Shown here one piece after another: positions 2,174 through 34,996 of a DNA stretch of 35,635 nucleotides; position 1 is the stretch's first letter; each line of letters begins with the position of its first letter. The notes beneath the pieces are model-generated. The model saw only the letters and a list, made by a program, of their open reading frames with translations, was not told where the DNA came from and did not search any database. The stretch is from positions 1 to 35,635 of the IMG/VR virus record IMGVR_UViG_3300044993_000064; one strand, written 5' to 3'. The position numbers and the translations under genes were made by a program. This DNA is from a virus.

Positions 2174-2521
2174 GTGACACCTGAAGGCAAAGTCAAAGCT
2201 GCTGTGAAAAAACTACTCAAGCAGTACCCGAACGTGTACAGTCACTGGCCTGTGCAAACTGGGTACGGCGCGCCGACGCTCGATTGTGTAGGCTCTATTG
2301 CGTCGAGTCTTTATCCTGGGCTCGGTGTCTCTTTTGCCATTGAAACAAAAGCGCCCGGTCAGCACCCGACACCCCGGCAGGAGCTGACCATGCAGAACAT
2401 GCGCGCCGGTGGCGTTAAAGTGTTCGTGATCGGCGAGGCACAGGATGTAGCTGGGAATTTCACAGGCATGATTGAGTTGGAGCGATGGCTGGATCGACAC
2501 TGCACGCGCGCGTCTCGCTAA
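2174..2521 (+). CDS. VRR-NUC domain nuclease
   Basis: 115 residues from a GTG three bases after the preceding stop. It opens TPEGKVKAAVKKLL, the usual N-terminal helix of small phage VRR-NUC proteins. D37 in TLDCVG and E57 with K59 in AIETKAP give the PD-(D/E)XK signature, followed by PTPRQELTMQNMRAGGVKVFVI, the VRR-NUC helix-strand end. Known small VRR-NUC proteins of phages are stand-alone nucleases, some shown to cut Holliday-like or flap structures. Here the gene overlaps the SNF2 helicase gene by 37 bp, a common pairing that suggests joint action on DNA. Confidence 0.85.
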   Translation: MTPEGKVKAAVKKLLKQYPNVYSHWPVQTGYGAPTLDCVGSIASSLYPGLGVSFAIETKAPGQHPTPRQELTMQNMRAGGVKVFVIGEAQDVAGNFTGMIELERWLDRHCTRASR

Positions 2522-4035
2522 AGCACCGCATGTTTGGCGTGCCGAAAGACCTTCGGCTTGCCAACGTAGTACCCGAAGCAAAGACGGTGGACGGCATGAC
2601 TGTCGTCCCGCATTCGCTCGACACTACAAGGCTTGCGCGCAACCTTGGCTATAAAGTCGGCGCGCCGATTCAGTACTACTACGACTGGCGCAACAGCACC
2701 CCGTTCCGAACGCAGCGGATCACGGCGGGCATGTTGACGATGAACCGCCGCGCATTCGTGCTTTCGGAGATGGGCACCGGCAAAACGCGCGCTACGCTTT
2801 TTGCACTCGACTACTTGATGCTGGAAGGCGAGATTCGCTCGGCGTTGATCGTAGCTCCGTTGTCCACACTCTCGATGGTTTGGGATCGGGAAATCTTTGA
2901 ACACTTTCCGGACCTCAAGACACGTGTTTTGCACGGGTCTCGTGCCAAGCGCCTTGAGCTGTTGTCCGAGCCTGCAAACATCTACATCATCAACCATGAC
3001 GGCGTTGGTGTGCTGCGAGATGCGCTGATCGCGCGCAAAGATATTGACTGCGTTGTGATTGACGAGATCGCCGCATACCGTAACGCCACGACTGAGCGCT
3101 GGAAAGCCATGAACGCGATTCTTGGCGGGCGCAAGTACGTGTGGGGGCTGACAGGGTCCCCAACCCCCAACGCGCCAACAGACGCATACGGGCAGGTGAA
3201 GCTGCTCATGCCAAACAACGTGCCGCGACATTTCTCGCATTTCCAGAAAGCTACGATGCGCAAGGTGTCGCAATTCACGTGGGTGCCGCGCCCTGATGCC
3301 AACAACACTGTGTTCGACCTCATGCAACCTGCAGTGCGTTTCCGCCGTGATGAATGCGTCGAGCTGCCTCCTGTATCGTTCACGAGCAGGGAAGTCCAGT
3401 TTTCGCGTCAACAGGAGGATACGTACACACGACTGATGAAATTGCTGCGACTGCGTTTTGCAGAGGGGGAGGTGACTGCCGCCAATGAGGGCGTGCTTTT
3501 CTCGAAGCTGCTGCAGATTTCGTCCGGGTGGGTCTATACATCCACTGGCGATGTGGTAGACCTCAATCCTACTCATCGACTGGCAGAGTTGGAGAGCATC
3601 CTCGATGAGTCGATTTCCAAAGTCATTGTGTTTGTCGATTTTGTGCACGCGGCTGAGAAAGTGTTTCAGCATTTGCTTGCCAAGAAGTACTCAGTCGGCT
3701 TTGTAACAGGCGAAACCCCTAAATCTCAGCGCGACATTGTTTTCAGAGATTTTCAGCACAGCGATTCTCCAAAGGTTATTGTTGCGCATCCCAAATGTAT
3801 GAGTCACGGTCTTACACTGACCGCAGCTTCTACAATTGTGTGGTATACGCCTACGACAAGTCTCGAGACTTACGAGCAAGCGTGTGCGCGAATCACACGA
3901 CCGGGGCAAAATAATAAACAGCTCATCGTACACTTGACAGGCTCTAAGATCGAGGCGAAGCTGTACAAGCGCCTGCAAGGCAAAGCGCAGTTGCAGGGGG
4001 CATTACTAGAAATGTTCGAGGAGGAATCACAATGA
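2485..4035 (+). CDS. SNF2-type superfamily II DNA helicase
   Basis: The ATG at 2485 is preceded by TTGGAGCG and lies inside the 3' end of the VRR-NUC gene. The 516-residue product has the SF2/SNF2 motifs in order: Walker A GTGKT at 97-101 (motif I), APLSTL around 124-129 (Ia), DEIA at 193-196 (motif II, DExx), TGSP at 223-226 (III), and in the second RecA domain the motif VI-like ARITRPGQ with R469 and R472. There is no extra DNA-binding domain, so this is a minimal phage enzyme. It should be an ATP-driven DNA translocase or remodeller used in replication or recombination. It ends by overlapping the next gene as ATGA. Confidence 0.9.
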   Translation: MAGSTLHARVSLKHRMFGVPKDLRLANVVPEAKTVDGMTVVPHSLDTTRLARNLGYKVGAPIQYYYDWRNSTPFRTQRITAGMLTMNRRAFVLSEMGTGKTRATLFALDYLMLEGEIRSALIVAPLSTLSMVWDREIFEHFPDLKTRVLHGSRAKRLELLSEPANIYIINHDGVGVLRDALIARKDIDCVVIDEIAAYRNATTERWKAMNAILGGRKYVWGLTGSPTPNAPTDAYGQVKLLMPNNVPRHFSHFQKATMRKVSQFTWVPRPDANNTVFDLMQPAVRFRRDECVELPPVSFTSREVQFSRQQEDTYTRLMKLLRLRFAEGEVTAANEGVLFSKLLQISSGWVYTSTGDVVDLNPTHRLAELESILDESISKVIVFVDFVHAAEKVFQHLLAKKYSVGFVTGETPKSQRDIVFRDFQHSDSPKVIVAHPKCMSHGLTLTAASTIVWYTPTTSLETYEQACARITRPGQNNKQLIVHLTGSKIEAKLYKRLQGKAQLQGALLEMFEEESQ

Positions 4036-4421
4036 GCGGAACAACTCCCGCCGAAAAAATCGCGCAGTACATCCGCTTGCGCGATCACATAAAGGCGGCG
4101 CAAGACGAGTTCGAAGCAAGTTTGGAGCGCCCAAAAGCGGCGATGAAAAAACTCGAGGCGGAGCTACTGGAATTCCTGAATGCCAACGGTAGCGATAACC
4201 TTGCTGTGAAAGGTGTCGGCACGGTCTATCGTACCAACCGTACGAGCGCCAGTGTCGAAGACCCTGCCGCGTTCATGGCGTGGGTGCGCGAACACGAGAT
4301 GTGGGACGCGCTCGATATCAAAGCAAACAAAACGTTTATCGCTGAGCAGGCAGAAGCTGGTGACCTGCCGCCCGGTGTGAAGTTCTCAGTCACGCAAGCA
4401 ATCAACATTCGGAGGTCTTGA
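4032..4421 (+). CDS. Conserved phage protein of replication region
   Basis: 129 residues with a strong GAGGAGG site before the ATG. The N-terminal half is a helical, charged segment (EKIAQYIRLRDHIKAAQ), the middle has NLAVKGVGTVYRTNRTSASVED, and the end is PPGVKFSVTQAINIRRS. I recognise this layout (long helix, a short beta motif with a TxxRTS-like turn, PPGV...INIRRS end) as a family found next to helicase and SSB-like genes in many podo- and siphoviruses, usually left as hypothetical. No catalytic motif is seen. The stop overlaps the next start (TGATG). Confidence 0.7.
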   Translation: MSGTTPAEKIAQYIRLRDHIKAAQDEFEASLERPKAAMKKLEAELLEFLNANGSDNLAVKGVGTVYRTNRTSASVEDPAAFMAWVREHEMWDALDIKANKTFIAEQAEAGDLPPGVKFSVTQAINIRRS

Positions 4422-5554
4422 TGTCTGTCCCTGCCACAACTAGCAAAGTGCAGCTGCCTGCTGTTTTTGCCAAGCTCAATCCCCGCGAAGTCATCACCGA
4501 GATTACCGGTGGTGTGAATGCTGGGTTTCCGGTCATCTCGTTTCGCGGCAAGGTCTGGCGTGTTCGCAAGAGCGGCGAAGAGCATAATTACGTGAACGCG
4601 GATGGCGATGCGATGCCGTCTATTGAAGTGGTTCTCGTGCGTTCGAACCCGCATCTGTCGAAGCTGTACTACGAAAAGGGTTACGAAGAGGGCACGAATG
4701 AAGCTCCTCGGTGCTGGTCCGCTGACAGCATCAAGCCCGACGCAGCTGTGCCGAATCCAATTTCAAAGGCTTGTGCTGTTTGCCCAAAGAACCAGTGGGG
4801 CAGTGGTAAGCCGACGCCGAGCGGCGGCAAGACTCGTGCTTGCGCTGACTCGCGCCGCATCGCTGTAGCATTCCGGCATGAGCTGGAGGAGCGCGGCAGC
4901 GATGCCACGCTGTTCCTGTTGCGTATCCCTGCGGGGTCTCTGATGAGCCTCAAAGAGTACGCCGAGCGCACGCTCGCGCCGCGTGGGATCTATCCGTTCG
5001 CAACGGGTACGAAGATCGGTTTCGATGCTCAGGTGGCGCATCCGAAGCTCACGTTCCGGGCAACTACGTTGCTCGACGAAGATGAAGCCGCCGCTGTATT
5101 GGCTCTCCGCGAGAGCGAGATTGCGCACCGCATTCTTGCGGAGGCTGATGAGCTTGCGGCGGCGGGAACTACCGAAGAGGACGGCTCCGGAGCTACGGAC
5201 GCTGAAACCGATTCGACTCCCGCTGCCGCAAGTGCTCCGAAGAAAGCCAAGCCGCGCCCTGCTGACGAGGAAGAGATCGAGGACGCGCCCCCGCCGCCCA
5301 AGCCGAAGAAGGTCATGGTCGAGGAAGAGGCTGAGGAAGCGCCTCCGGCACCGAAGGCCAAGCCGAAGAAGGTCATGGTCGAGGAAGAGGCTGAGGAAGC
5401 GCCTCCGGCACCGAAGGCCAAGCCGAAGAAGGTCATGGTCGAGGAAGAGGCTGAGGAAGCGCCTCCGGCACCGAAGGCCAAACCGAAGAAGGCGACTGCT
5501 GCACCCGCTACGGACTCTGACTTCGATGCCATGCTGGACTCGATCTTGAAGTAA
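4421..5554 (+). CDS. Zinc-site phage protein with acidic repeat tail, possible ssDNA-binding protein
   Basis: I start at the ATG at 4421 (GGAGG at 4411-4415); a TTG at 4418 would add one residue. Residues 1-240 are a folded-looking domain with four cysteines (C98, C118, C121, C141; ACAVCP and TRACADS) that could hold zinc. Residues 250-377 are low complexity: Ala/Pro/Lys/Glu repeats KPKKVMVEEEAEEAPPAPKA in about three copies, then DSDFDAMLDSILK. An acidic, flexible tail ending in a short hydrophobic peptide is typical of phage ssDNA-binding proteins, and the place between helicase and primase fits, but I see no definite OB-fold signature. The call is therefore inference from architecture and context. 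Confidence 0.55.
   Translation: MSVPATTSKVQLPAVFAKLNPREVITEITGGVNAGFPVISFRGKVWRVRKSGEEHNYVNADGDAMPSIEVVLVRSNPHLSKLYYEKGYEEGTNEAPRCWSADSIKPDAAVPNPISKACAVCPKNQWGSGKPTPSGGKTRACADSRRIAVAFRHELEERGSDATLFLLRIPAGSLMSLKEYAERTLAPRGIYPFATGTKIGFDAQVAHPKLTFRATTLLDEDEAAAVLALRESEIAHRILAEADELAAAGTTEEDGSGATDAETDSTPAAASAPKKAKPRPADEEEIEDAPPPPKPKKVMVEEEAEEAPPAPKAKPKKVMVEEEAEEAPPAPKAKPKKVMVEEEAEEAPPAPKAKPKKATAAPATDSDFDAMLDSILK
5298..5492 (+). repeat. 60-bp tandem repeat, about 3.25 copies, in coding tail
   Basis: Bases 5341-5400 and 5401-5460 are identical; the matching 3' part of a unit precedes them (5298-5340) and the 5' part follows (5461-5492, one change at 5481-5483). Each unit encodes 20 residues of KPKKVMVEEEAEEAPPAPKA type. 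Being a multiple of three, copy-number change would keep the frame. Confidence 0.95.
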
Positions 5555-8877: not shown

Positions 8878-9204
8878 TTATTCGATTGCCCCATCCGTCG
8901 GCGCTTCCGGAGGGGACAGATCGAAAGTTTGATTGTCGATCTCCAGAAAGTCCGACTCGTTGCCACGTCCATCGACTGCCGTGACATGCACATCATACCG
9001 CCCTTCGAGCCCGTCGAATTGCGGAATGTTGGCAGTGGGGTAGCGGACATATCCGTCAGCGTCAGGAGCGCGGACGGCCACGTCATTGTATGGCGTGTCG
9101 TACGCCGCTACGGTGTTTGCCCCACGTACGCGGAACCGATACGCCACGACATCGGGGGATGTCGATGGGCGGAACCGCACCACAATTTCCTTTATTCGTG
9201 CCAT
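8878..9204 (-). CDS. Ig/FN3-like phage protein
   Basis: ATG start with AGGAGGTAG upstream, two bases after the previous stop. The 108-residue product reads as one beta-sandwich: VVRFRPSTSPDVVAYRFRVRG, then YDVHVTAVDGRGNESDF, the typical strand F-G turn of fibronectin type III domains. There is no signal peptide. It ends PPEAPTDGAIE, the same tail as its upstream neighbour. Phage FN3/Ig-like domains usually sit on virion surfaces or bind cell-surface sugars; here a stand-alone single domain is seen, so the role is open. Confidence 0.65.
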   Translation of the reverse strand: MARIKEIVVRFRPSTSPDVVAYRFRVRGANTVAAYDTPYNDVAVRAPDADGYVRYPTANIPQFDGLEGRYDVHVTAVDGRGNESDFLEIDNQTFDLSPPEAPTDGAIE

Positions 9205-9206
9205 AT

Positions 9207-9602
9207 CTACCTCCTATCTTCGATTGCACCATCACTTGGGGCCTCGATTGCACCGTCAGTAGGTGCCCTCGGACGGATAAACTTACACGCTTGATTACTT
9301 GGTGCAGATTCACCACGAATCGTGTTTGCCGTCACAAAATAGCACTGGTTACCACTGGGCTGCAGGACGAGTTTCGCACGCAAAGCCTGAGTTGTGAGCA
9401 GCAACGTTGGAGTGGTTCCAGCCCTGTACACACGATAAGTGATCGGGATGTCGATTGGCGAATTGTCGGTATTTTGCGTCGGCGCAGCCCACGACAAGCA
9501 AACTTCGTCAGACGCAGATACGCACGGTTGTTGCGCTAGTGCAAGGGGACCGTAGAGTGCAGCGGTAGCTGCAAGAACGCTTCCCACTCTGGAATAGTGC
9601 AT
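9207..9602 (-). CDS. Secreted FN3-like phage protein with signal peptide
   Basis: 131 residues. The N terminus MHYSRVGSVLAATAALYGPLALAQ is a clear Sec signal peptide with a cleavage site after ALA (about residue 23). The mature part has four Cys (PCV, EVCLSW, NQCYF, QACKF), likely two disulfides, and FN3-like strands (PITYRVYRAGT, CYFVTANTIRGESAPSN). It ends in two copies of a tag, APTDGAIE and APSDGAIE. A phage protein exported to the periplasm and far from the lysis genes suggests action on the host envelope or a virion, such as entry exclusion. This is inference only. It overlaps the next upstream gene by 67 bp. Confidence 0.65.
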   Translation of the reverse strand: MHYSRVGSVLAATAALYGPLALAQQPCVSASDEVCLSWAAPTQNTDNSPIDIPITYRVYRAGTTPTLLLTTQALRAKLVLQPSGNQCYFVTANTIRGESAPSNQACKFIRPRAPTDGAIEAPSDGAIEDRR

Positions 9603-9738: not shown

Positions 9739-12700
9739 TTACTCCATTACGTAAGGTTCTGCTTCTTTGGCGTAGCGTACCTTAGATCCACGCAGGTCAG
9801 CACCATACCGCGCGATATTACGATCGCGAGTTATGGCATTAGCGCGGCTGCGCATTAAGTCAGCGTACGTGATCGGAATGCCGCCCGTGCGACGCATGCG
9901 CTGGTTATGCTCGAGTATCATCTCGCGCACTTCTTGACGCTCTTCTGGAGTCTTAGCTTTTACAAACATACGACGCAGCAAAGCGACAGCCTCTTCATCA
10001 GTCATCTTGCGAGTTTCGATCGCCGAGCGTGCAGCGTACATTTCGTCGATTGAAGTCGGCTGGAACCCCAGCGATTTGAGGAAAAGGGCTCCTGGACTGA
10101 TATCGCTCTCTTCGATAAGCGTGGCTCCATAGTTCGAAACCAGCCCTTCATCGGCAAACCGTTTGACTTGCATTAAGTCTTTCACCATTTTGGGCATGAT
10201 GCGCTCGACTCCGCGCCACCACTCGCCTTTACCGAAATCGCTGATAGCCGTATACGCATTCGACCCAATGCCCACCAACGGACCGCCGAAAGATATGGCA
10301 AGAGACCCAAGGAATGTATCTGCCGTCTCCGGTTTGAGGTCAATGAAATAAAGCGTGCCCAGAGACATGCGGTCTGATACATCAGCACCAAGCGCGGCAG
10401 GGATGCCTTTAGAGAGCAGCAGCCCACCATCCGTGCCGAACAACTCCGCTGCCATTTCACGGAACGTTTTGTCGTAAGTCTCACCCGAAAGCACATCCTG
10501 CCAGCGGTCGTCATCGTCGTTGAACGCAGCGAACATGAGCCCGAGCGCCCACTTGATCGGCTGCAGCGTGGCTCCGATAGCTCCTGCAACAGCTAAGTGC
10601 GTTATGAATAGGCCCGCCAATGTCTCTATGGCCATTTGACGAGACAGCCCACCAGTCCGTACCGCCCTCAAAAACTCGCTGACCATCAGCGCGTACATGT
10701 GCTGCGGGTACTGCATGAACTGGAACACCAGAGGTCCCAGTGAGCCGAGCGGCCCGGTCTGCTGGAACAGCCGCGGCTTGTTGGCACCTGAGTAGTTGAA
10801 TTGCGTGAGCGAAACGGCCTGCTTGGCAAACTCGACCGACTTTTTGTGATCGAGATTTGTCGTACGCGCGACATCGTAAGCCGCAATTGCTGAGACGATG
10901 CGGTTGTTGACCTCAGTCAAGTGCGCCATGATGCGAGAAGCGTCCATCACCCTAGACATGCGCTTGTTAGCTGTGCCTTTAGCCATTTGGCGTAGCTCAG
11001 CAACAAACGACAAGTCGATGATCGACTGCCGCTGCAGCTGTTGAAGCATGTCGAGGTAATCGGGGGCCATCTTGCCGCCGCGTTCCTTGATGTGCTTCTT
11101 GACTTGGTCAAGTACGCTGAACGCGTCTTCCGCAGCAACCTTGTTGATCAGCGCTTTTACACCACCCCACGAGTTCACAGCTTCAGTCAAGAGCGGCGAC
11201 GCGATCAGCTTTTGCGCGTTCGCAAGTGCCGCAGCAGCTTTTCCGTAACCGGCCCGAGCCCCCAACCACGGCAGAGTGACGAGGTACGGCTGTGACGCAT
11301 TGATGAGCCAGTAGGACGGCGAAGTCAGGAGCATGAAGTGCGCCAAAGACGTGCCGCGCTGAACGAACTTTGTGAACTCTGTAGGATCTGCCGTAGCGTC
11401 GTCGCGAAGACTGATCTCGCGGACGATCTGGCCCATGCGAACTGCTGAAATCTCGGATTCATCCGTGTGCTCACGGACCATCCGCTTCATTTGCGCGCGA
11501 GCTTCAGCCATCCGCCAGCCGTGTTTGAGCTGCGCCGTGTAGTACGCAGACGCTTTTGAGTAGCTTGCAAACGCGCGATGCTGATCCTGCGGATTAGTGC
11601 CACGGCGTTTTTTACGCTTGATCTCGTGCTTGCGGAAAGACCCCTCTGCAAGTGAACGAAGATAAAAATGCTTGATCGCAGCTTGCGCCGCTTTGTTACC
11701 TTGAAGCTTGCTCAACAGCGTCGCTAGGCTAGCGTCGCCAGAAATTACATCTTCGCGAGAGACAAAATCAGAGCGAAGACGGACGATTACAGGCACACCG
11801 TACCGTTCTTCCAACTCCTTTTTAGCCTGCTCGGCTGCAGTACGTGTCTCGTGGAGTTGGTACTCTTTCTCAGTAACGACTACCGTCGTATCGCCTTCGA
11901 TTACTGCTTCAAGGGTCGGATCGCTAGCCAGCACGCTATTACGGTATTCGCGCGCAGCTTTTTTGTCGGCAAAGCTGCGACGCGATATTTCGCGCTCTGC
12001 GTAAACTGAGTAATCTCCGAAACGCGACAACGGGAAGTACGGACCACGGTACTGCCCCGGAATCGCTGCAAGTTTTACGATCGTGCTGATCTCAGCGTCA
12101 GTCAGAATTTCTTCCGAAAACTCGTTACGTAGACCTTTCTTCGTATTCAGCTTGAGTTCTAGCACCGACTGTTCGTTGTACTTGGCGTCGAACTCTTTCT
12201 GTGACAGACCGCCTTCAGTGTTGACGACAATTGCACGAATAGCGTTGAGCGTCTGAAGCGCAATCTCACGCTTCAGCGACGTGCGGTAAAAGTCACGAAC
12301 CTTTTTGTACAACGTTTGCGCTTCAGGATCTAGCGCTTCGAACCGCCGCTTCAGCTCTGCATGCTTCGCTTTGGCTTCATCAAGCTCCAGATGCTCATTG
12401 TCGACATGATCGATCGGCAGGTCTGGATGTGCCTGCGCAATCGTCGACTCTTGCATGATGGAAGCCATCTCGGCAGCAGCTTCGGGTTTGGTCTCCGATA
12501 GCTTTGTCCAATCCCGAGAATACCGGTCAGCGTCTTCCATCAACTCAGAATTCATCGCATTGCGTTCAGAGAACGCACGGATGTACTCGTTGAGCGGGTT
12601 GCGGATTACCGGGGTATCACCGTCCCGCTGGAAGTACCGACCAAAGAAATCGCGGATTTGCTCCATAGTCATGACCGCCAACACACCTGTCGATGCGCTG

Positions 12701-15700
12701 TCAGCCGACTCACTTACGCGTGCGCGGAGCCGATCACGAACTTCTTTTGTCTGTTGCAGACGCGTAAAGACATCGTTAATTTTGTTCCGCGTGCCAGCGT
12801 CGAGCATCGGCAACTGCGGAATATCGCGGTTCGTGACGTCGACACCTTTGAAAAGCATGTCCGTAGTCATCAAGACCGCGTCCAGAAGGTTCTCGATCTT
12901 CGGCGTATCCGGCATTCCGATAATACGGCGAACAAAATCAATAAACCGCTGCCACATGGTCTTGGTGGCATCGATCTTGATTTCAGCAAGCTTCTGTTGA
13001 AACTCTGGGTTCGTAAACGCTTCTGAAACGAACTCGAACTCGTTCTCAAGACCGTACCACTTGCGGTCGCCCTGATTCCTAAGTTCTGCCCGCGCAGCCT
13101 GCAAGAGCCCGCGCATCAGGAACCTGACCTCACGGCTGTCAAGCATCGCGCCAGTCGTAGCGGCATGTACGGCTTCGTGAAGAACGACGTGTGCAATACG
13201 CTGGTTTGCGGCATCGAGTCCAGACTGAGTGCGCAGCGCGTCGAAGTAGGCACGGTTCAACACGATCCGCATCCGCTGCCCGGTGAGGAACTTGCCGAGC
13301 GGGACCTTCTCCAGCTTTGCCGGGTCGCCGAGCGGCTTGCCGTAATCCCACGACACGTCAACCTGCATGTTCAGGTCAAGTATCCGCTGGGCAACCTGAG
13401 CGAATCCCGAGTTGCTCGGAAGTCCGCGCCACAAAGCAATCAGCGCCGAGTTTAGGTCTGTAAGGCCTTCGGCTTCATCCATGAGCGTGGAAAAGTTGCG
13501 CCCTGCTTCGGCGTACTGTTCCCAAGTACCGCCTTCCTCAAGATAGAACAGCCCGTCGTTAGCGCGATTTTTCGCCCGCTCAAACTCAGCAATTAGCTTA
13601 TTTTGACGGCGAGTCTCAGCAGAACGGTTAGGCTTGTTTTCACGAACTTGCCGCCTCTTTGCTTCGACAAGATCCTTAAACGGCTTGTACTTTGCCAAAT
13701 CTTCACTGGGCAACATGCGCTCGCGGTACATCTCAAGCATGGCCTTGATGCCATCAGACCTGGAGATTTTCTTGGCGAGGATGCGCGGACCGATCGGACG
13801 GATTGTTTTCGTGCCGTCCGGCATGAAAACTTTCCAACGTTTGAGCGCGTCGTTAATCGGCATTGCAAGCCCAGCGTCTTCAAGCGCTGCAAAAAACCGC
13901 TCTTCGGCAACGACAATGTCTGCAACCGAAGCACCGTGACGAGTGATCTGCTCACGCAGTTTTGCAGCTGCGTCATTGCGCAACTGCATCGTGGCGATAC
14001 GTTCAAGTGCTGCGTCAGTGATCTGAAATTTGTCAAACTGATCACGGTACTTGATCGCAGACTTCATGTCCTTGAGGTACTGCGCCATTATCGCTTGCTT
14101 CGATCCTTCGCGCTCTTGCCGCAAAACGTCCGGAATATCCACATCTGTGTTGCGTTCGCCAAACCGGCGATTAAACCGACGAAGCAGCAGAACCTCAGTT
14201 GGAAGCGCTCCGTTTTCAGACAGGCTAAAACCACCTTCATCGGTGCGCTTGAACCCCATTTCACTGAACCACTGCGACAGCGACCTCCACGCAGCAGAGT
14301 CTCCAGAGGCTTTCATCTTTTCCAAAGCAAGACTGGCGCGCACTGCCATAGCCTTTGTCGGGCCGCCAACATATACCGCGCCACGCTTCACGCGTGACGT
14401 ACCGTCAGACATGACGTACTCGACAAGCGCCCGCATGAAAGGCGCGATCTCATTCTCGTACAGACTGTTGTTACGAAGTTGCTGATCGATAGTTGCTGCG
14501 CGCTTGACTTTTTGTATCTGCGCTTTGGTGATCTTGGCGCGAGTCTCAGGCACCCTGAGCGAGCCGAGAACTACCGGATCAGTACGCGCAGCAGAAATGG
14601 TAGCTTCACGTTCTTCAGTGCGACCAAGCGTTGCTAGCTCGCTGACCAGATTTTGCGGACTCAACTTGCCAAGATTTTCAGCAGTCTTGTTGGCAATTTT
14701 TAGTGCGTTACGAAAGTCGATAGATAGTCCTTGCAACTTCGACAAAGCACGAAGGTACTGCGTGAACGCGGCGAGATACCAACGAGCGTAAAGAAAATCT
14801 TTGGCAGTGTCAGTCAGCTTACCGTCTTTCGTTTCTGTGCGGATCGACTCAAACACCGGGTTTGTCCGATCTGACATACGCCTGTACAGCGCTTCAAGTT
14901 CGTCAGCTAGTGTGGCTGCACGTTGTTTTGCTTCTGCAATTTGCCGTGCAGTTTCTGCACGCGTTTCAACGCTGGACTCTGAAAGCCTCTGAGATTCCTT
15001 GACCGCCGACAAAACGTTCGTATCGAACACTGCGCCCTGAGCAAGCCCTTTGCCGCTACGACTACGCAAGCGGCGCAGCTTGAGCGCATCTGCCATACGA
15101 GTAAGCCCGATACCTTTTGCTGTCCCGTATTTGCGAGCTGCTAGCAATACGCGAAGGCGGTTAATCAGCTTGCGCTTCGAGGAGTCGTTTTTGCCCATCG
15201 CTTCGATGAGCTCATCTGCAGTACGGCCCTTGACTCGGAATACAGTGCCTTCATCTCCGTCAAAAGGAACTGCTTCGTCGCCGAGTGTATTGTCGTCTTT
15301 TTTAGGCCTCGCTTTGAACATGCCCGCCAGCTGGTTAGCGGCGCGCACGAACATGGCGTCCAGCTCATCACCTTCAAGCTTGGAGATGCTGTCAAACGTC
15401 AAGTCGTCCGGAATAGGCGGCAAGGCGCGAAACGGCTCTACGCGATCGCTCAATTCCCGTTGAGTGCGCTCGACGCGCGCAACAGTCTCGGGGCTGACAC
15501 GCCGCGCAACCCGCACGATTTTCTCTTCCGGCGTAGTGCTGGGGTTGAGCTTCATGAACGCAACGAGCTGCTGACGTGCAGCTTCAGCGGCATCATCGGC
15601 TTCCCGCTTTGCCTCAGCAGTTTGCGCCATAGCGGCACGGGTCTGCGCTGTGACGTACTTATCCCACAGATACGCGTAACGCTCGTTAAGCGTGTCGTTG

Positions 15701-18438
15701 GCGAACTTGCGGTTTTTCGGCAGATCGAATCCGTCGATTTGCGCTTCACGAGACTGCTTACGCCGAATCTCGGCATAGCTCAGCAACTTCGTGGCTGCGC
15801 CTTCCGGCGTCACCGTCGTCAAACGTCCGGCAATACGCTCTGCAGTATCGGCTTCAGTTCCATCGTCAAGTTCTTCTTCTTCTATCGCAGTACGCACCGC
15901 TTCAGTCGTCTGACGACGGCTTTTGGCCTCATCTGCTGCGCGCTTGTCGCGAGCGACCAAGGAAGCACGACGACGCATTGCGTCGCGAAGCGAGAGCACG
16001 ACACCGGTACGATCACCGGTCGTGAACTCTTTCCGAAGCCGCTCGGCTTGTTCAGGAGTGGCTACCAGCGACTCACGGACTACGCGATCTTTGGAGTCAC
16101 GCTGCTGAACGACAATATCGCTGCCGAGCGGTTTCTCGATACCTGCACCAGTGATATACCCGAGCAGCTGCTCCATACCTTCCGGAGGAAGAGATTTGCG
16201 CAGCTCAAGTAGCTCTTTAGCAGTCTCGGCATCCTTTGCGTAGACCACTCCGCCTTTGCCATCAAAATTAGGCAATGGCACGCCGACACCACGCACACGT
16301 TCAAACATGCCGGAACGGCGAAGCGACTCGATGTTGGCTCGCGAGAGGTACACGCCCTTGCGTTGGCTGTCGGGGCGCTGCATGTCTTCCAACTGCGCTT
16401 CGATATCAGCAACTGGCTCTGCAGACGGCTCTTCGCCGGCAAATGTCTGGCGAGTGATCGGAGTAAAAGACTCCTCCACGTCACGCTGGCCGTAGCGGCG
16501 CTCCACGCGAACAGAAGCTTCGGGGTACCGTTCTGCAAACTTGTCTGCAACGGCGTTGGCTTCTTCTGCCGAAGGATTCAGTACGCGCGCAATAGGCCGC
16601 CCATTTTCGTCGTACGCCACGGTCTCGAACCCGAGCAGCTCCCGCCGCCCGACTCCGCGCACGCCGGTGCGGATCATTTCGGTTGAAGAACCGACTCCGG
16701 GCTCAGGCTCGAACAGGTCGAGCTGCGCCTCATCCCGCACCATGCCCTTTGTGAGTTCTGCGCGTTCCTGCTGCTCGCCCAGAAGCTCGTTCTGACGCTT
16801 CTGCAGCGCGCGATACCGAAGCCGTTCCGCGCGATTTTTGGCGCGAGGACCGGGGACGGGGAGCATCATCGCCTCTTCCGTCGTAACCGGCACTTCCGCG
16901 CTATACGGATACCACTCTGCTTCGTTGGCTTTGGCCTGCTCCGAGGTCGGCTCAGGAAATGGAACCGCTTCTCCGAGAACGGATTCTTGTCCGGGGGCAG
17001 GGAACATCTCCCCCTGCCCGGTATAGGGGTTAAACCGGGTAGGCTGGACCTCGGACGGAGCCAGATCGAGAGTCCTTTGAAGCATGCCCGGAGGCGGCGG
17101 AGGTGGCGGGGGCGAGGGTTCCGGGAACCGGACCGCCTCGCCCAGAACGGACTCTTGCCCGGTCGGAGGGAACAGTTCCCCCTGTCCGGTGTAGGGGTCG
17201 AACCGGGTAGGCCGAAGCTCGGCCTCGGCTTTGGACGCCTCCTCACTGGCTTTCAGAGCCGCCCGGATGTCCTCTGGAACGTCCGCAGGCGGCTCTGGAG
17301 AGGCGCTGGGGGCGGGGGGTGGCATAGGTAGGGGGTCGCTCCCCCGTCGACCGAACGCAGCGCCCACGCCGCCACCGATCAGACCTCCGATCGCACCCCC
17401 CTGCACCATCGACTCCAGAACGCCTTCGTTCCAGACCCGGCCGTTGTCGTAGATCTGGGCGGCAATGTTCTGGGCGATCTGCTCGGCCCCTGACTGACTG
17501 CTTTCCTGCGGGGCTTCAGCGGCAAAGCCGGTCGCAAACCGCTTACCGATGCCGCCACCCTTCGTGAACACAGGCTCGAGGAACTTGCCAGTCGTGCGGC
17601 TGATCAGACCGACAACCGCGCCGCCTATCACCGGTGCGTAGCCCTGCGCTTCCCGAATAAGCTGCTGGCGAGCCGCAGCATCACCAAGCTGGGTACGCAG
17701 TTCACGGTAACGAGGGGCTTCCATAAGCTCCTGCTCAGGAGCCTTCTCGATCTCATCAGCGATGTTGGCGGCAATGCTGCCAAGCGACATCAACGCTTCT
17801 GACGCGCCGAGATAAACCAAGGCACCGGGTGCCATACCGGCACGGAAGGCAACAATTGCGGGAAGGAGTGTCGCAACTGACGGCGGAATCGCTTGCGCCG
17901 CCTGCAGAGAAAGCGAAGAAACGAATTCGCCTACATCCCCTTGCCAGATCGTTTTGTTTGGATCGAGAGTCGTCCATTCGCGCGCCATGCGGGCCTGCGC
18001 TTCGGGCGACATCGAAGACACAAATTTCTGCGCCGTCTCGGCAGAAGCACGACGACCGCGCGCAAACGTCTGCGCGAGGTCTGCAGCGCCTTGCTCGAAA
18101 GGTGTCTCGCCTTTCCCAGCCAGCCTACGCGCAATGTACTCACCCGCGCCCGAGACCATCGACCCGACGCCCGCAATGCCTGCACCTAGTGCGCGGCCAT
18201 AGTCAGCAAACTTGGGCGAGTCGCTTTCGGGGGGCTTGTATGCAAGCCCACGCACGCTGTTCAGCAAATCCGCAATATCGTCGGGCTGCTGAGCCGGATC
18301 CTCGCCAGTGCTGATCGCGCGACGCACGCGCGCACCAACCGTCGGACCGAATCCGGAAAGCGCGGACGGCCGGATAGGCGAGAAAGGCTCTTTCAGCCGA
18401 GGATCGGCGTTTGGAAACAGGTCTTCGTATTTCGCCAC
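9739..18438 (-). CDS. Giant 2,899-residue PLxRFG polyvalent / ejection protein with HEXXH motif
   Basis: GTG start with GAGGAG upstream, abutting the previous stop. Seen in order: hydrophobic glycine-rich segments at about 60-100, 175-230, 265-285 and 340-360; a proline-rich linker with a duplicated PTRFxPYTGQGE motif at about 409-496; a long charged helical region to about 1700; HEAVH at 1754-1758 with a Glu cluster about 45 residues on (E1802, E1806), a zinc-metallopeptidase pattern; PLSRFG at 2136-2141; and hydrophobic stretches in the last 550 residues. PLxRFG marks a class of very large phage proteins, often counted among polyvalent proteins that enter the cell with the DNA. Its place after the 344- and 585-residue genes fits an ejection protein. 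Host targets are unknown. Confidence 0.85.
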   Translation of the reverse strand: MAKYEDLFPNADPRLKEPFSPIRPSALSGFGPTVGARVRRAISTGEDPAQQPDDIADLLNSVRGLAYKPPESDSPKFADYGRALGAGIAGVGSMVSGAGEYIARRLAGKGETPFEQGAADLAQTFARGRRASAETAQKFVSSMSPEAQARMAREWTTLDPNKTIWQGDVGEFVSSLSLQAAQAIPPSVATLLPAIVAFRAGMAPGALVYLGASEALMSLGSIAANIADEIEKAPEQELMEAPRYRELRTQLGDAAARQQLIREAQGYAPVIGGAVVGLISRTTGKFLEPVFTKGGGIGKRFATGFAAEAPQESSQSGAEQIAQNIAAQIYDNGRVWNEGVLESMVQGGAIGGLIGGGVGAAFGRRGSDPLPMPPPAPSASPEPPADVPEDIRAALKASEEASKAEAELRPTRFDPYTGQGELFPPTGQESVLGEAVRFPEPSPPPPPPPPGMLQRTLDLAPSEVQPTRFNPYTGQGEMFPAPGQESVLGEAVPFPEPTSEQAKANEAEWYPYSAEVPVTTEEAMMLPVPGPRAKNRAERLRYRALQKRQNELLGEQQERAELTKGMVRDEAQLDLFEPEPGVGSSTEMIRTGVRGVGRRELLGFETVAYDENGRPIARVLNPSAEEANAVADKFAERYPEASVRVERRYGQRDVEESFTPITRQTFAGEEPSAEPVADIEAQLEDMQRPDSQRKGVYLSRANIESLRRSGMFERVRGVGVPLPNFDGKGGVVYAKDAETAKELLELRKSLPPEGMEQLLGYITGAGIEKPLGSDIVVQQRDSKDRVVRESLVATPEQAERLRKEFTTGDRTGVVLSLRDAMRRRASLVARDKRAADEAKSRRQTTEAVRTAIEEEELDDGTEADTAERIAGRLTTVTPEGAATKLLSYAEIRRKQSREAQIDGFDLPKNRKFANDTLNERYAYLWDKYVTAQTRAAMAQTAEAKREADDAAEAARQQLVAFMKLNPSTTPEEKIVRVARRVSPETVARVERTQRELSDRVEPFRALPPIPDDLTFDSISKLEGDELDAMFVRAANQLAGMFKARPKKDDNTLGDEAVPFDGDEGTVFRVKGRTADELIEAMGKNDSSKRKLINRLRVLLAARKYGTAKGIGLTRMADALKLRRLRSRSGKGLAQGAVFDTNVLSAVKESQRLSESSVETRAETARQIAEAKQRAATLADELEALYRRMSDRTNPVFESIRTETKDGKLTDTAKDFLYARWYLAAFTQYLRALSKLQGLSIDFRNALKIANKTAENLGKLSPQNLVSELATLGRTEEREATISAARTDPVVLGSLRVPETRAKITKAQIQKVKRAATIDQQLRNNSLYENEIAPFMRALVEYVMSDGTSRVKRGAVYVGGPTKAMAVRASLALEKMKASGDSAAWRSLSQWFSEMGFKRTDEGGFSLSENGALPTEVLLLRRFNRRFGERNTDVDIPDVLRQEREGSKQAIMAQYLKDMKSAIKYRDQFDKFQITDAALERIATMQLRNDAAAKLREQITRHGASVADIVVAEERFFAALEDAGLAMPINDALKRWKVFMPDGTKTIRPIGPRILAKKISRSDGIKAMLEMYRERMLPSEDLAKYKPFKDLVEAKRRQVRENKPNRSAETRRQNKLIAEFERAKNRANDGLFYLEEGGTWEQYAEAGRNFSTLMDEAEGLTDLNSALIALWRGLPSNSGFAQVAQRILDLNMQVDVSWDYGKPLGDPAKLEKVPLGKFLTGQRMRIVLNRAYFDALRTQSGLDAANQRIAHVVLHEAVHAATTGAMLDSREVRFLMRGLLQAARAELRNQGDRKWYGLENEFEFVSEAFTNPEFQQKLAEIKIDATKTMWQRFIDFVRRIIGMPDTPKIENLLDAVLMTTDMLFKGVDVTNRDIPQLPMLDAGTRNKINDVFTRLQQTKEVRDRLRARVSESADSASTGVLAVMTMEQIRDFFGRYFQRDGDTPVIRNPLNEYIRAFSERNAMNSELMEDADRYSRDWTKLSETKPEAAAEMASIMQESTIAQAHPDLPIDHVDNEHLELDEAKAKHAELKRRFEALDPEAQTLYKKVRDFYRTSLKREIALQTLNAIRAIVVNTEGGLSQKEFDAKYNEQSVLELKLNTKKGLRNEFSEEILTDAEISTIVKLAAIPGQYRGPYFPLSRFGDYSVYAEREISRRSFADKKAAREYRNSVLASDPTLEAVIEGDTTVVVTEKEYQLHETRTAAEQAKKELEERYGVPVIVRLRSDFVSREDVISGDASLATLLSKLQGNKAAQAAIKHFYLRSLAEGSFRKHEIKRKKRRGTNPQDQHRAFASYSKASAYYTAQLKHGWRMAEARAQMKRMVREHTDESEISAVRMGQIVREISLRDDATADPTEFTKFVQRGTSLAHFMLLTSPSYWLINASQPYLVTLPWLGARAGYGKAAAALANAQKLIASPLLTEAVNSWGGVKALINKVAAEDAFSVLDQVKKHIKERGGKMAPDYLDMLQQLQRQSIIDLSFVAELRQMAKGTANKRMSRVMDASRIMAHLTEVNNRIVSAIAAYDVARTTNLDHKKSVEFAKQAVSLTQFNYSGANKPRLFQQTGPLGSLGPLVFQFMQYPQHMYALMVSEFLRAVRTGGLSRQMAIETLAGLFITHLAVAGAIGATLQPIKWALGLMFAAFNDDDDRWQDVLSGETYDKTFREMAAELFGTDGGLLLSKGIPAALGADVSDRMSLGTLYFIDLKPETADTFLGSLAISFGGPLVGIGSNAYTAISDFGKGEWWRGVERIMPKMVKDLMQVKRFADEGLVSNYGATLIEESDISPGALFLKSLGFQPTSIDEMYAARSAIETRKMTDEEAVALLRRMFVKAKTPEERQEVREMILEHNQRMRRTGGIPITYADLMRSRANAITRDRNIARYGADLRGSKVRYAKEAEPYVME
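16950..17216 (-). repeat. Imperfect duplication in proline-rich linker of the giant gene
   Basis: Two copies of a segment coding PTRFxPYTGQGExFPxxGQESVLGEAV lie at residues about 409-446 and 465-496 of the giant protein, separated by an eight-proline run and LQRTLDLAPSEV. On the DNA the copies are near 17100-17216 and 16950-17046. The region is visibly richer in G and C than its surroundings. Confidence 0.8.
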
Positions 18439-20196
18439 TTACCGGCTCCTCGCGCTCTCCAGAACCCTCTGCACAATGACACGCGGGTCCATAGACGGAT
18501 TACGACGGTAGACTTCTGACATCACCGCTGCAAGCCGCTCTGCTGCCGCAGCATCGAGTCCGTTTTCGAACGAGAACTCCTCTGCTTTCGTTACGAAGTA
18601 GTTGCCAGCGCGATCGTAATCAGATGCTTTGAGTCCATCATCACGACCACCCGCAAGTGCTGCCTCAGCTTGCATCATGTCGGTTTGCGCACGTGTCGCA
18701 TTTGCCCGCGCGTTTGTCAGAGCGGCCGACGCGTTGGCTTCGGCAAGCGGCTTCTCGACTTCTTCGTACTTGCGAAGGTCCATCTGGAAGTCGCGCCGGT
18801 CTTTGGCGTACTGCTGCCACATGCCTTCCTTGCGCATATTGTCAGTGATCGCGTAAATCAGCTCTGGCTGGACTTCAAAAGGACTTCCAACCGGCTTACC
18901 TGTCGCCTCGTCAATCGTAAGCGCGTAGAGCTTGTTGTTTTTGACGCCGAACTTAGCGTCTTTACCGGTCGGCAAGTACTGGTACGCCGCGCGCAGCGCA
19001 GCAGCAGCGCCTTTCAAATTACCGCCCTGCAGCATCGCCATCGCTTGCTGTGCATAATTCGTAAAACCTTGCTGCTGCATCTGTATCACAGCGGAGTCGA
19101 CCGTCTGCATCACCTCGGCCGTTGACTTCCCACGAAGCAGCATCGAGACCGCCATCTCGCGGCGGTACTCTTCCCAGTCCTGTACACGAAAGTCCGGGAT
19201 TTCTTCCGGAGATACATCGCTCAGATCGACCGGCTCTGCCGACGAAGGGAGCGCTTTAGGAGAGCGCGCAGGGCCGCCACGCTGTGCAACTACCGTAACT
19301 TCATCCATAGTTACGGCTGAAGGGGCGTTACGAGTAGAGGACCCACGTGGACGAGTAGAAGGCCCACGTGCCGGTAACGCTTCATTGTCAGACGCCAGGG
19401 CAGGATCTTGTTGAAGCGCTTTACGCTGTTTATCGCGATACGGAAGGCTGTAGTTGCCTAGCGTAAGCGCACGCACCGCGTTGTTACCGAGGTCCGATGC
19501 AGCGCCGAGAGCACGTACGCCAATGTCGCCCATCAGAGATGGGTCGTTGGTCTGTAGACCAAAGCGTTCGCGATAGTCCTCAGTCGGAGTGTCGGCGACG
19601 TCCATAGCTGTAGCGCCAAGTGCACCAGCTGCGCCAGCACCTTTTAGCGCGCGCACAAACTTACCGCCTTCGCCTATTCCGCCAACACCTTTGTACTTCG
19701 CAGCCTCGCGAACACGCTCGACGCCAGAGTCTGCTAGGGCTTTTGTCTTGTCTACCGCCTTTGCGATTTTTGCGTCGAGAGGCAGCTCGCGACTGAAATT
19801 CTTCATGTCACGATTGACCCATTTAGTGTCGACACGCCCGCCGTCAGCAAACTCAGGCATCGCGTATTCGTCGACCGTGATCGACTCCATCTGCGGTTCC
19901 ATCGGCGTCATGTCTGCGCTCAAAGGCAGGCTGCGAGACAGCGCGCGCCTTGGCCTACCACGAGATTTTTTCCACTTCGCCAACCGCGCCCAGATCGGGT
20001 CCGGCGTCTCGTAGTCGCTCATCAGGCTTTCAGGGTCGTAGCCAAGCCTTTTGAAGCCGCGAGCGGTATCCGTCTCGTTGTTCTCCAACTGGCGGATGCC
20101 GGCGTCACGGATCTTCTCGAGCTGACGGCTAGCGCGCATCTGCTGTCCCGCCTCAAGCCCGCTCGTAAGCCCACCAAAGAAACTACCCAAGCTCAT
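18439..20196 (-). CDS. Putative internal virion / ejection protein
   Basis: 585 residues; ATG with AGGAGG five bases before it. The N terminus MSLGSFFGGLTSGLEAGQQMRASRQLEKIRDAG is a style I know from podovirus internal virion proteins. Glycine/alanine-rich segments follow at about 175-200, then long Ala/Gln-rich helices (residues 340-410: FTNYAQQAMAMLQGGNLKGAAAALRAAYQYLP) and a C-terminal helical region. No catalytic motif is seen. It lies between the 344-residue gene and the giant gene with gaps of one or no bases, so the three are probably made and packaged together. The role is inferred from position. Confidence 0.65.
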   Translation of the reverse strand: MSLGSFFGGLTSGLEAGQQMRASRQLEKIRDAGIRQLENNETDTARGFKRLGYDPESLMSDYETPDPIWARLAKWKKSRGRPRRALSRSLPLSADMTPMEPQMESITVDEYAMPEFADGGRVDTKWVNRDMKNFSRELPLDAKIAKAVDKTKALADSGVERVREAAKYKGVGGIGEGGKFVRALKGAGAAGALGATAMDVADTPTEDYRERFGLQTNDPSLMGDIGVRALGAASDLGNNAVRALTLGNYSLPYRDKQRKALQQDPALASDNEALPARGPSTRPRGSSTRNAPSAVTMDEVTVVAQRGGPARSPKALPSSAEPVDLSDVSPEEIPDFRVQDWEEYRREMAVSMLLRGKSTAEVMQTVDSAVIQMQQQGFTNYAQQAMAMLQGGNLKGAAAALRAAYQYLPTGKDAKFGVKNNKLYALTIDEATGKPVGSPFEVQPELIYAITDNMRKEGMWQQYAKDRRDFQMDLRKYEEVEKPLAEANASAALTNARANATRAQTDMMQAEAALAGGRDDGLKASDYDRAGNYFVTKAEEFSFENGLDAAAAERLAAVMSEVYRRNPSMDPRVIVQRVLESARSR

Positions 20197-20197
20197 A

Positions 20198-21232
20198 TCA
20201 GCCTCCTACCGGCAGGGCGCGACGGACCTGCTGCTCCTGCTGGGCTGCGGGGGTGTGATACTTCTGCAGCAGTTTGTCGAAAAACTCGCGGCCTTTTGCA
20301 GCCACCACATCAGCGGGAATTACGTACTCCCCGACCGACAGCTTCGCGTGCACCTGATCGTCGATACCAGAGCCGTCCGTAGGGCCTTGAGTGACAGGTC
20401 CAACTGGGTCGAGCGGCATGCCGCCGTCTGCAAGGTTAAGACCAAGTCCTACAAGGCCGCCAAGCCCGCTAGCAAGATTTGAATTGACCCTTTGTTGCGC
20501 GCCGAACCCGGCCAGTTGGTTCTGGTACCCCTGCGAGGCAATGTTTGCGGCCTGACCGACCCCCTGCAGAGCCTGACCGGAGAAACCGAGACTCGACGAG
20601 AGCGCACCAGTGCTGGTTCCCGTGGTCGCGTTCGCTCCGCCCACACCCGCCTGACCGGCCGCAATCGACTGCCCATAACTCTGGGCAACCTGCGACGGAA
20701 GACCGCGACCGATATTGAGTGCATCAGCACGAAGTGCGCGCGCCGTGTTGTCAACGCGCTGGTCGGCGGCGTTGGCTGCGGCAGCTTGCGCCTGCGCCTG
20801 CTGAGTACGCATGCTAAGGTCGAGCGCCCTATTCCGAGTCTGAGACGGGTCGATGCCGTAGCTTTCTAGACGCTGCAGAGCGTTACGGCGGGCTGCGTCG
20901 AACGACGTAGAGATGTCGGCGATCGCGCGTCCGCGCTCTTGTTGTCGCCGCTCAGGAGAGTCATAGCTTTGGAACTCGCCAATCAGGTTGTCTTCGAGCG
21001 GACGGTATACATCTACGTACCGCTGTCGATCTTCGCGCGCGTTGCGGAACTGATCTTCCATCGCCGGCAGCTGGACGTCGAGTACACGGTTCAACGTCTC
21101 ACGATTCATCCGATCCTGCTCGCGTGCCCAGTCAAACTGCTCACGAGAAAGTCCGAGCTGCTCGCGGGCAATCTCTTCGGAGACTCGCGTCAGTTCAGAT
21201 AGATCAGGCGGCTTCGGTGCTTTACAACACAT
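20198..21232 (-). CDS. Putative internal virion protein, MCCKAP type
   Basis: 344 residues starting MCCKAPKPPDL, an N terminus shared by a group of phage virion proteins. Residues 15-120 are strongly helical and charged; 120-260 are rich in Ala, Gly, Gln and Ser; the C-terminal part contains DDQVHAKLSVGEYVIPADVV followed by FFDKLLQKYH, a motif (KLSxGEYVIPxxVV) that recurs at the ends of phage internal and tail-associated proteins. The start overlaps the GNAT gene by 11 bp. It is expected to be a structural or DNA-ejection component. The motif is seen; the exact virion place is inferred. Confidence 0.7.
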   Translation of the reverse strand: MCCKAPKPPDLSELTRVSEEIAREQLGLSREQFDWAREQDRMNRETLNRVLDVQLPAMEDQFRNAREDRQRYVDVYRPLEDNLIGEFQSYDSPERRQQERGRAIADISTSFDAARRNALQRLESYGIDPSQTRNRALDLSMRTQQAQAQAAAANAADQRVDNTARALRADALNIGRGLPSQVAQSYGQSIAAGQAGVGGANATTGTSTGALSSSLGFSGQALQGVGQAANIASQGYQNQLAGFGAQQRVNSNLASGLGGLVGLGLNLADGGMPLDPVGPVTQGPTDGSGIDDQVHAKLSVGEYVIPADVVAAKGREFFDKLLQKYHTPAAQQEQQVRRALPVGG

Positions 21233-21743
21233 CGCGCAGCTCCTTCATCATCACGACCGCAGAAGGGGCGTAGCCCCTTTTAGTCAGCCACGGGACCAAA
21301 TCTGTGCCACCTGTCGGGTGACGACTAGACAACGCAAAGATCTTACACCCGAGTTTTTTCAAACTTGACTCGACGTAATCCAAAAACACGCTGGCCGCAC
21401 CCTTGCCACGACACTCTGGGGAGAGGAAAAAGGCGTCTTCCCGCCCAATGTACTCGCGTTTTGCATGACCGGACTGGTAGACGTAGCACGCCAAATACCC
21501 GACTAGTTTCCCGTCAGTGCGCGCCGTGAACATTGCAAACTGCCCATTCTTTTCAGACACAAAATAACTGGCGTAGTCAACGTCCATTTCGAGAGGCGTA
21601 CCTTTTTCAACCTCGTTCCAGTGCAAAGCAAAAAGCGGAGCGATTTCGTCTTTAATGTCGGAGAGTTTCTCGACACCAAACGTGAACGTCGTCTCTTGCA
21701 AGGTCACTGTCTTTGTCGGAAAAGCGTAGTACTGCACTGTCAT
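21222..21743 (-). CDS. GNAT family N-acetyltransferase
   Basis: 173 residues. The GNAT core is readable: strand GKLVGYLACYVY, then EDAFFLSPECRGKGAASVFLDYVESSLKKLGC, where RGKGAA is the acetyl-CoA pyrophosphate-binding R/QxxGxG/A loop of motif A, and a final strand with ALSSRHPTGG and RGYAPSAVVMMKEL. GNAT proteins move an acetyl group to an amine. In podoviruses a GNAT of this length is often found next to virion and lysis genes; its target is not known. It overlaps its neighbours on both sides, so it is made with the late genes. Confidence 0.85.
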   Translation of the reverse strand: MTVQYYAFPTKTVTLQETTFTFGVEKLSDIKDEIAPLFALHWNEVEKGTPLEMDVDYASYFVSEKNGQFAMFTARTDGKLVGYLACYVYQSGHAKREYIGREDAFFLSPECRGKGAASVFLDYVESSLKKLGCKIFALSSRHPTGGTDLVPWLTKRGYAPSAVVMMKELRDVL

Positions 21744-33937: not shown

Positions 33938-34996
33938 TTAGCGAATACGCCCTTCGACCTGCGCTTTGAAGATGTCCTGTTCGATCTTCTTGGCATCATC
34001 TGGACGCTTCGCGTATTTCCCCGCACTGAGATCAGAATAAAATTTCTGAATCTCGGGGCGGGTCCAAATCCGCTTACCGGCTCCTTCCTGAGCGCCTGCT
34101 GTCCCCTGCTTCGGAGCACCGGGGGCCGTCAGCGAGCTTAGCGAAACTTGTGGTGCAGACTGATCTGCAGCAAGTGGCGTGGTCGCAGACGGGGTCACAG
34201 CCGCGTTTTCCCTTAGATAGCCTTCAAAAAACGCAACAACGCGCGGTCCGTCATTGCGCTGATATGCAATGTTGAGAAGAGTGCCGCGCTTCTGTCCAGA
34301 AAACGGATCGACTTGATCCAGCCACTCGATAAAATTCGGATCGACATCGAGCTGCTGCCAAGTCGGTACACGTTCCGTAAGAAGCCGGTGTACTTTCTCG
34401 CGCTCAGTCTCTTCGACCTTGCGCGCTGCAGTCGAGACTTGCGCCTCAACTTCCTGAACCTTTTTTGCGACCGGCGTAATTGTGTTTGCAATACGCTGGT
34501 CGACATCTGGCACGACAGCTTCACGAGCTGCGCGCTTCACAAAATCGTAAAGGTCCGCGCCAAACTCGGCGACTTCTTCGTCGCGTACAAGCTTAGATAC
34601 GGACGGCTTTTGCTGCGGCTCCTGCTGCGGTGGCATAGTCGATAGCAAACGCTGTGTAGCCGCCAACTGATCAGCAAGCTGCCGAATCTGAAGCGACTGC
34701 TCTTTGATTTGATCTTGAAGCCGAGGAACCTCCGCGTTGTACTTGCCCTGAAGCACCCGGTACCGCTGCTCCCAATCAGTTGGTGCGGTAGGTGCGGTAG
34801 GTGCGGTAGGTGCGGTAGGTGCGGTAGGTGCGGCAGTGGGCTCAGTAGAAGCGGCAGTAGGCTCGGCAGAAGCGGTGGGTGCGGTCGTGTTTTCAGTAGA
34901 CGACTCCGCAGCAGCTTTCTGCGCTTTGGCGTATTCCTCAGCGATCTGATTTGCGCGGTCGATCTGTTTGCGAACGGAGCTTGGGAGAGCACTCAT
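33938..34996 (-). CDS. Scaffold protein
   Basis: 352 residues. Residues 30-75 are a Thr/Ala/Pro linker with an APT tandem repeat, 76-130 form a coiled coil (YRVLQGKYNAEVPRLQDQIKEQSLQIRQLADQL), 170-200 another helix pair, and the C terminus is basic (KRPDDAKKIEQDIFKAQVEGRIR). A helical, low-complexity protein directly before the major capsid gene with a basic end is the standard form of a phage scaffold: it guides procapsid building and leaves. No protease domain is seen. A short inverted repeat (33932-33945) covers its stop codon. Confidence 0.85.
   Translation of the reverse strand: MSALPSSVRKQIDRANQIAEEYAKAQKAAAESSTENTTAPTASAEPTAASTEPTAAPTAPTAPTAPTAPTAPTDWEQRYRVLQGKYNAEVPRLQDQIKEQSLQIRQLADQLAATQRLLSTMPPQQEPQQKPSVSKLVRDEEVAEFGADLYDFVKRAAREAVVPDVDQRIANTITPVAKKVQEVEAQVSTAARKVEETEREKVHRLLTERVPTWQQLDVDPNFIEWLDQVDPFSGQKRGTLLNIAYQRNDGPRVVAFFEGYLRENAAVTPSATTPLAADQSAPQVSLSSLTAPGAPKQGTAGAQEGAGKRIWTRPEIQKFYSDLSAGKYAKRPDDAKKIEQDIFKAQVEGRIR
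34782..34835 (-). repeat. 9-bp tandem repeat (six units) in scaffold gene
   Basis: Five exact units GGTGCGGTA (plus strand) from 34782 to 34826 and a sixth with one change (34827-34835). On the coding strand each unit gives Ala-Pro-Thr. It codes the flexible linker before the coiled coil. Being a multiple of three, slippage would not shift the frame. Confidence 0.95.

Follow-up and report, generated by a model that had tools for sequence, protein, structure and literature searches.

What is the role of a single viral protein of 2,899 amino acids? The question is raised by the window analysed here, a virus record of 35,635 bases that may be a fragment, in which the original prediction had placed an open reading frame of that length at positions 9739-18438. 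The frame is present, on the minus strand however, as a single ORF of 2,899 codons with a GTG start; read on the plus strand, the same stretch contains stop codons throughout. A scan of IMG/VR with five stretches of the giant as baits yielded about 14 distinct relatives with the same layout, along with one 99% copy. A relative of 2,896 amino acids is 51% identical to the giant from end to end. The GTG start assigned here, giving VAKYEDLFPNAD, is in keeping with a relative that begins MARFEDLFPNAD. For a record that is possibly a fragment, an artefact could be entertained, whether from a fusion during assembly or from a long, spurious wrong-strand frame, but the same full-length gene lies on other contigs, at 51% identity and as the 99% copy, and its neighbours are syntenic in relatives. 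The relatives refute the artefact, whose probability we regard as negligible.

In the relative L130 (genome of 61.6 kb) the major capsid protein is 91% identical and the primase-helicase 75%, compared with 51% for the giant. The giant gene is among the less conserved genes, diverging faster than the capsid and primase of the same phage pair. In the window, the major capsid gene is preceded by that of a scaffold-like protein with PTAPTAPTAPT repeats (33938-34996, minus strand).

The giant is, by sequence, a formal PLxRFG/LPD39 protein. Its mostly helical C-terminal domain, hereafter tail-700 (residues 2192-2875; 9814-11865, minus strand as for all the features of the giant), scores 305.9 bits against NCBIfam NF032893, where the curated cut-off is 100 (E 6.1e-91), while residues 1909-2057 (12268-12714) match LPD39, Pfam PF18858, with 77.1 bits against a cut-off of 27 (E 1.9e-21). 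LPD38 (PF18857) gave no match to the giant, nor to the control sequences. The predicted PLSRFG motif was found at residues 2136-2141 (12016-12033), aligned with PLMRFG, PLMRYG and similar sequences; most relatives have G-x-Y-F-P-L-x-R-x-G, with variations. Hydrophobic regions had also been foreseen near both termini and occur at residues 187-213 and, within tail-700, 2601-2629. The class, among the longest of phage products, had been described as barely studied. Its members are mostly annotated just 'DarB-like' or 'hypothetical', but LPD39 proteins have already been placed in the polyvalent class, predicted to be injected with the phage DNA (Iyer et al. 2017, PMC5512222). PHROG matches of the giant cover its C-terminal third only and include 10089, 'DarB-like antirestriction'. 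Similarly, matches in 50,697 phage records are confined to residues 1775-2890, at 22-27% identity, and the first 1,879 residues alone produced a best E of 1e-3, within the zincin domain described below.

The N-terminal module (residues 1-365; 17344-18438), which includes the first hydrophobic stretch, was explored with a profile of 14 family sequences in a six-frame search of 19 whole phage genomes. All of its confident matches are to giant ORFs, near their N-termini. They include the virion RNA polymerases (vRNAPs) of N4 (gp50, 4e-12), FSL SP-076 (2e-14) and Vibrio phage D301 (6e-14), and the giants of Parlo (2e-29), Mwe-JY07 (8e-26), Atu_ph08 (8e-24), RHph_TM27A (5e-17), 1F273 (1e-8) and F116 (2e-7). 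One weak second match in N4 fell in a different ORF (E 0.002), and there were no matches in eight of the 11 vRNAP genomes searched, in LASTA or in LUZ19. A search of PDB sequences with the N-terminal-module profile returned chance matches only. An hhalign comparison of the full-length family profile with 11 vRNAPs yielded just two confident matches, and these are collinear: residues 80-365 with N4 107-446 (probability 98, E 1.8e-13), and residues 1751-1863 with N4 2225-2371, in the zincin (probability 91, E 1.2e-6). For comparison, reversed and column-shuffled controls gave E values of 0.06 or more. By these profile matches, the N-terminal module of the giant and the corresponding domain of N4 vRNAP are homologues. 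The N4 domain inserts into nanodiscs, and its putative membrane helices lie at 224-278 (PMC12633501).

The second region in common with N4 is a zincin-like metallopeptidase domain (residues 1645-1880; 12799-13506), which hhalign matched to the C1 domain of N4 vRNAP. The peptidase-like motif of the original prediction lies here, as the HExxH signature HEAVHA (residues 1754-1759; 13162-13179). Searched against the PDB, the C-terminal profile matched two entries, both at the zincin: 9sfn_G, named 'Internal virion protein' (E 1e-22), and 23sg_S, gp10 (E 3e-11). Searching back identified the former as LUZ19 gp37 (100%) and the latter as the internal core protein of KP34-like Klebsiella phages. His1754, Glu1755 and His1758 are present together with a downstream Glu1802, and no relative covering the domain has lost the HExxH or Glu1802. 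The residue equivalent to Glu1802 is found within EFMAW in N4-like vRNAPs and KELVAW in LUZ19, whereas a second glutamate, Glu1806, is absent from both. Since Glu1806 is not kept in these proteins, Glu1802 is the better candidate and likely the third zinc ligand. The sequence HEAVHAAT was itself the bait in one of the IMG/VR scans and its invariance in the family alignment was therefore discounted as evidence, although several relatives were found by other baits, without the motif. The zincin may cut the giant chain or a partner. Precedent exists both ways: P1 DdrB is processed, while N4 gp50, with the same HExxH domain, is packaged uncut (Iyer et al. 2017, PMC5512222).

Relationships of tail-700 are harder to trace. 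Against the C2 domain of N4 it reached a probability of 19 at best, and the candidate identification of tail-700 as a C2 homologue was rejected; homology of N4 C2 with the helical C-terminal part of the giant is unsupported. When compared with a ten-member profile of the LUZ19 gp37 C-terminus it aligned over 430 columns (probability 68, E 5e-5; reversed control 0.42), a result obtained solely with the larger, 43-sequence profile. This weak collinear match is only suggestive of a relationship between the two. An AF2 model of residues 1640-2838 (mean pLDDT 76.5) had no fold match in the PDB below E 0.001.

As had been predicted, the giant gene is the last of the ejection genes. The late operon, all on the minus strand, reads GNAT acetyltransferase (21222-21743; Pfam PF00583, E 1.9e-10), a 344-residue internal virion protein (20198-21232; PHROG 8003, virion structural protein, E 4e-67), a 585-residue partner in a gp15/gp51-like position (18439-20196; synteny and homologues in relatives) and the giant. 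The order of the last three is conserved, and the ejection genes stay together in relatives. The 344-residue protein also has homologues next to other giants, in RHph_TM27A (E 8e-75), Parlo (2e-29) and 1F273 (1e-7). RHph_TM27A and Parlo both have an annotated acetyltransferase at the equivalent place, and comparison of these with the GNAT sequence of the window gave no significant match. The L130 genome contains a head-tail adaptor/portal (PHROG 332), a terminase and a DNA polymerase; in the present phage the genes for portal, terminase and DNA polymerase fall beyond the window. A gene for a T7-type RNA polymerase was found in none of nine relatives; the LUZ19 and N4 controls were matched. The arrangement can be compared with that of JC1, a Bcep22-like podovirus in which an acetyltransferase and virion proteins of 332 and 510 residues are followed by a DarB-like giant of 4,515 residues, this last detected in CsCl-purified virions by 51 unique peptides (PMC9144972). 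JC1 and Bcep22 are tied to the present giant through the name of PHROG 10089 and gene order alone, and the phage-collection matches of the Parlo tail include no record with Burkholderia in its name.

Other genes of the window show features of their own. Just after the giant gene are two adjoining small ORFs (8878-9602, minus strand) which by eye are fibronectin-III/Ig-like and have a common PTDGAIE end. On the plus strand, an alanine-rich, low-complexity ORF with AARAAAMAAAGAARDAA repeats (1-375) is open at the left end of the window. Three adjoining small ORFs (348-671, 641-886 and 856-1260) have a coiled-coil-like stretch in common, as if tandem duplicates, and the first two have in common WRI..LAQTAEDL...VDEWKRAAKG.K. 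The ORF at 4418-5554 ends in tandem KPKKVMVEEEAEEAPPAPKA-like units, at about 5250-5530.

Taken together, the homologies and gene order make it very probable that the giant is a large ejection (internal virion) protein of a short-tailed phage, of the T7 gp16, LUZ19 gp37 and N4 gp50 kind, with a PLxRFG tail. Its gene closes the late operon, next to those of further internal virion proteins, and it has homology to proven ejection or internal virion proteins. Support is strong for the original suggestion that it enters the host together with the DNA. Its N-terminal module and zincin match N4 gp50 and LUZ19 gp37, which have been shown to be ejected or internal to the virion, and its genes are ordered much as in a phage type in which the giant has been found in virions. 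The giant would be packed in the head with its 344- and 585-residue partners, as suggested by homology, gene order and the proteomics of the related phage type. On infection it would be ejected by way of the tail, together with the DNA or before it. By homology with the N-terminal domain of N4, the N-terminal module would insert in the inner membrane, which the giant would span following ejection. The zincin and the helical C-terminal part (LPD39 and tail-700) would form a conserved unit for packaging and delivery, leaving the middle third (residues 640-1640) as the lineage's own cargo, with module B as its putative conserved core. The equivalent slot is occupied in N4 by RNA polymerase and, in other giants, by methylase/helicase, pyrophosphatase or ADP-ribosyltransferase.

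Between the N-terminal module and the zincin lie a proline-rich linker, variable in sequence and low in conservation and occupancy (residues 366-660; 16459-17343), module B (residues 660-860; 15859-16461) and module C (residues 1010-1440, approximately; 14119-15411), the last weakly conserved and discerned from BLAST segments with 23-27% identity in relatives. Module B is present in an AF2 model of residues 640-1000 (mean pLDDT 84) as a small alpha/beta domain that leads into helices. It is conserved in all relatives but one (L108), an alignment of 13 sequences having 22 invariant columns, and is represented in bacterial genomes by one short contig of a Hyphomicrobiales MAG. It has no Pfam match and no clear match in the other giants compared, its profile found chance matches only among PDB sequences, and the 640-1000 model found nothing in the PDB below E 0.001. 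In BFVD, a single neighbour of module B was obtained, the nameless viral A0A516KWL9_1 (E 2.5e-5, query TM 0.38), which is uninterpretable. By comparison, residues 850-1640 are weakly conserved, with mean identities of 16-27% per 50 residues. In neither the giant nor six relatives did Pfam recognise an enzyme family beyond the HExxH domain, and this confirms that, as had been claimed, no methylase or helicase is readable within the chain. The pairing that marks DarB-like antirestriction, adenine methylase plus SNF2 helicase, is therefore missing by Pfam from all seven chains, whereas Parlo and LASTA have it. Of the other giants, these two carry SLT and ResIII/SNF2 plus methylase, 1F273 has a methyltransferase-like domain, RHph_TM27A InPase and F116 ART. 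The window does contain a free-standing SNF2-type helicase gene in its early region (2485-4035, plus strand; Pfam PF00176, E 4e-20), with no methylase seen alongside; a helicase of this type is inside the giant in Parlo and LASTA and a separate gene here. Module B is the best candidate for a lineage-specific cargo, and the middle region may hold an activity that is new.

How much the chain does after entry is where the remaining explanations differ. Rather unlikely, in our estimation, is a multi-effector weapon whose zincin frees several enzyme domains to act on host defences once the chain is inside. This has been proposed in general for polyvalent proteins, a class in which one chain combines domains of differing biochemical activity; such a role would be compatible with ejection. 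It gains from the giant's membership of the LPD39/PLxRFG class, from the SLT, SNF2/ResIII, methylase, InPase or ART domains of related chains, and from the suspicion that LPD39 is enzymatic (Iyer et al. 2017, PMC5512222). The lack of any enzyme family but the HExxH domain in the giant and six relatives argues against it, as does a middle in which only module B is well conserved. The idea that several anti-host activities reside in one chain, part of the original prediction, is unsupported, the HExxH peptidase being the sole recognisable enzyme signature and LPD39 a suspected enzyme. More doubtful still is a purely structural ejection protein, with a relic for a zincin and a flexible spacer for a middle. 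The poor conservation of residues 860-1640 and the uncut packaging of N4 gp50 would suit such a protein, but not the 22 invariant columns of module B, nor the retention of HExxH and Glu1802 in every covering relative, which holds also for those that other baits had found.

The N4 gp50-like layout, with its homologous N-terminal and zincin parts, and the nine relatives without a T7-type RNA polymerase gene where the LUZ19 and N4 controls were positive, could also point to a virion RNA polymerase diverged beyond recognition. However, hhalign comparison of the middle with the vRNAP polymerase domain gave a probability of 0.1 (E 0.4), the 640-1000 model matches no polymerase, and the space available is about 960 residues in one relative and poorly conserved. 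A hidden polymerase was consequently rejected, and we hold it to be highly improbable.

The ejection protein thus being the preferred reading, a broader proposal can be made, albeit tentatively and with somewhat less than even confidence. N4-like giants, DarB-like giants and the present lineage may have a common chassis, consisting of membrane N-module, zincin and helical tail, and an exchangeable cargo bay, which here (modules B and C, residues 640-1640) would hold a new injected activity, of a fold unseen in the PDB, acting in the first minutes of infection. The novelty lies in an N-terminal profile whose confident matches are all to ejection-protein giants, N4 vRNAP included, a zincin that matches LUZ19 gp37 and N4 C1, the position of module B in the polymerase slot of N4, and the conserved gene order. 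The ties of N-module to N4 and of zincin to virion proteins put PLxRFG giants in the ejection machinery and predict which parts serve delivery and which part is cargo. Cargo swapping on a common delivery chassis becomes testable, with module B as a compact, conserved first target.

Among known systems, P1 DarB and DdrB, compared here by description only, are virion-packaged defence proteins and the source of the 'DarB-like' name; DdrB has a zincin (Iyer et al. 2017, PMC5512222) and the giant differs in being without methylase-helicase. The PLxRFG/LPD39 'DarB-like' giants of 55-65-kb podoviruses (Parlo, LASTA, PEp14, Atu_ph08, RHph_TM27A) have tail-700 (profile E < 1e-130) and LPD39 in common with it. 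Gene order is likewise in common, as are the N-terminal module (Parlo, Atu_ph08, Mwe-JY07, RHph_TM27A, 1F273) and the zincin (Parlo, RHph_TM27A). They differ in that SLT, SNF2 and methylase are missing here, module B is not found in them and C-terminal identity is only 22-27%. LUZ19 gp37 and the KP34-like core protein, of T7 gp16 type, have the same zincin, HEAVHAAT...E. Gp37, a virion protein of solved structure (PDB 9sfn), is, unlike the giant, 1,337 residues long, with no match to the N-terminal module and without module B. N4 gp50 (Schitoviridae) is laid out as membrane N-terminal domain, RNA polymerase, C1 with HExxH and helical C2. In the N-terminal module and the zincin (C1) it is homologous to, and collinear with, the giant, and its gene, like that of the giant, is the last in a three-gene ejection operon (N4 order gp50-gp51-gp52). 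Where gp50 has its RNA polymerase, the giant has none, and the slot holds module B instead.
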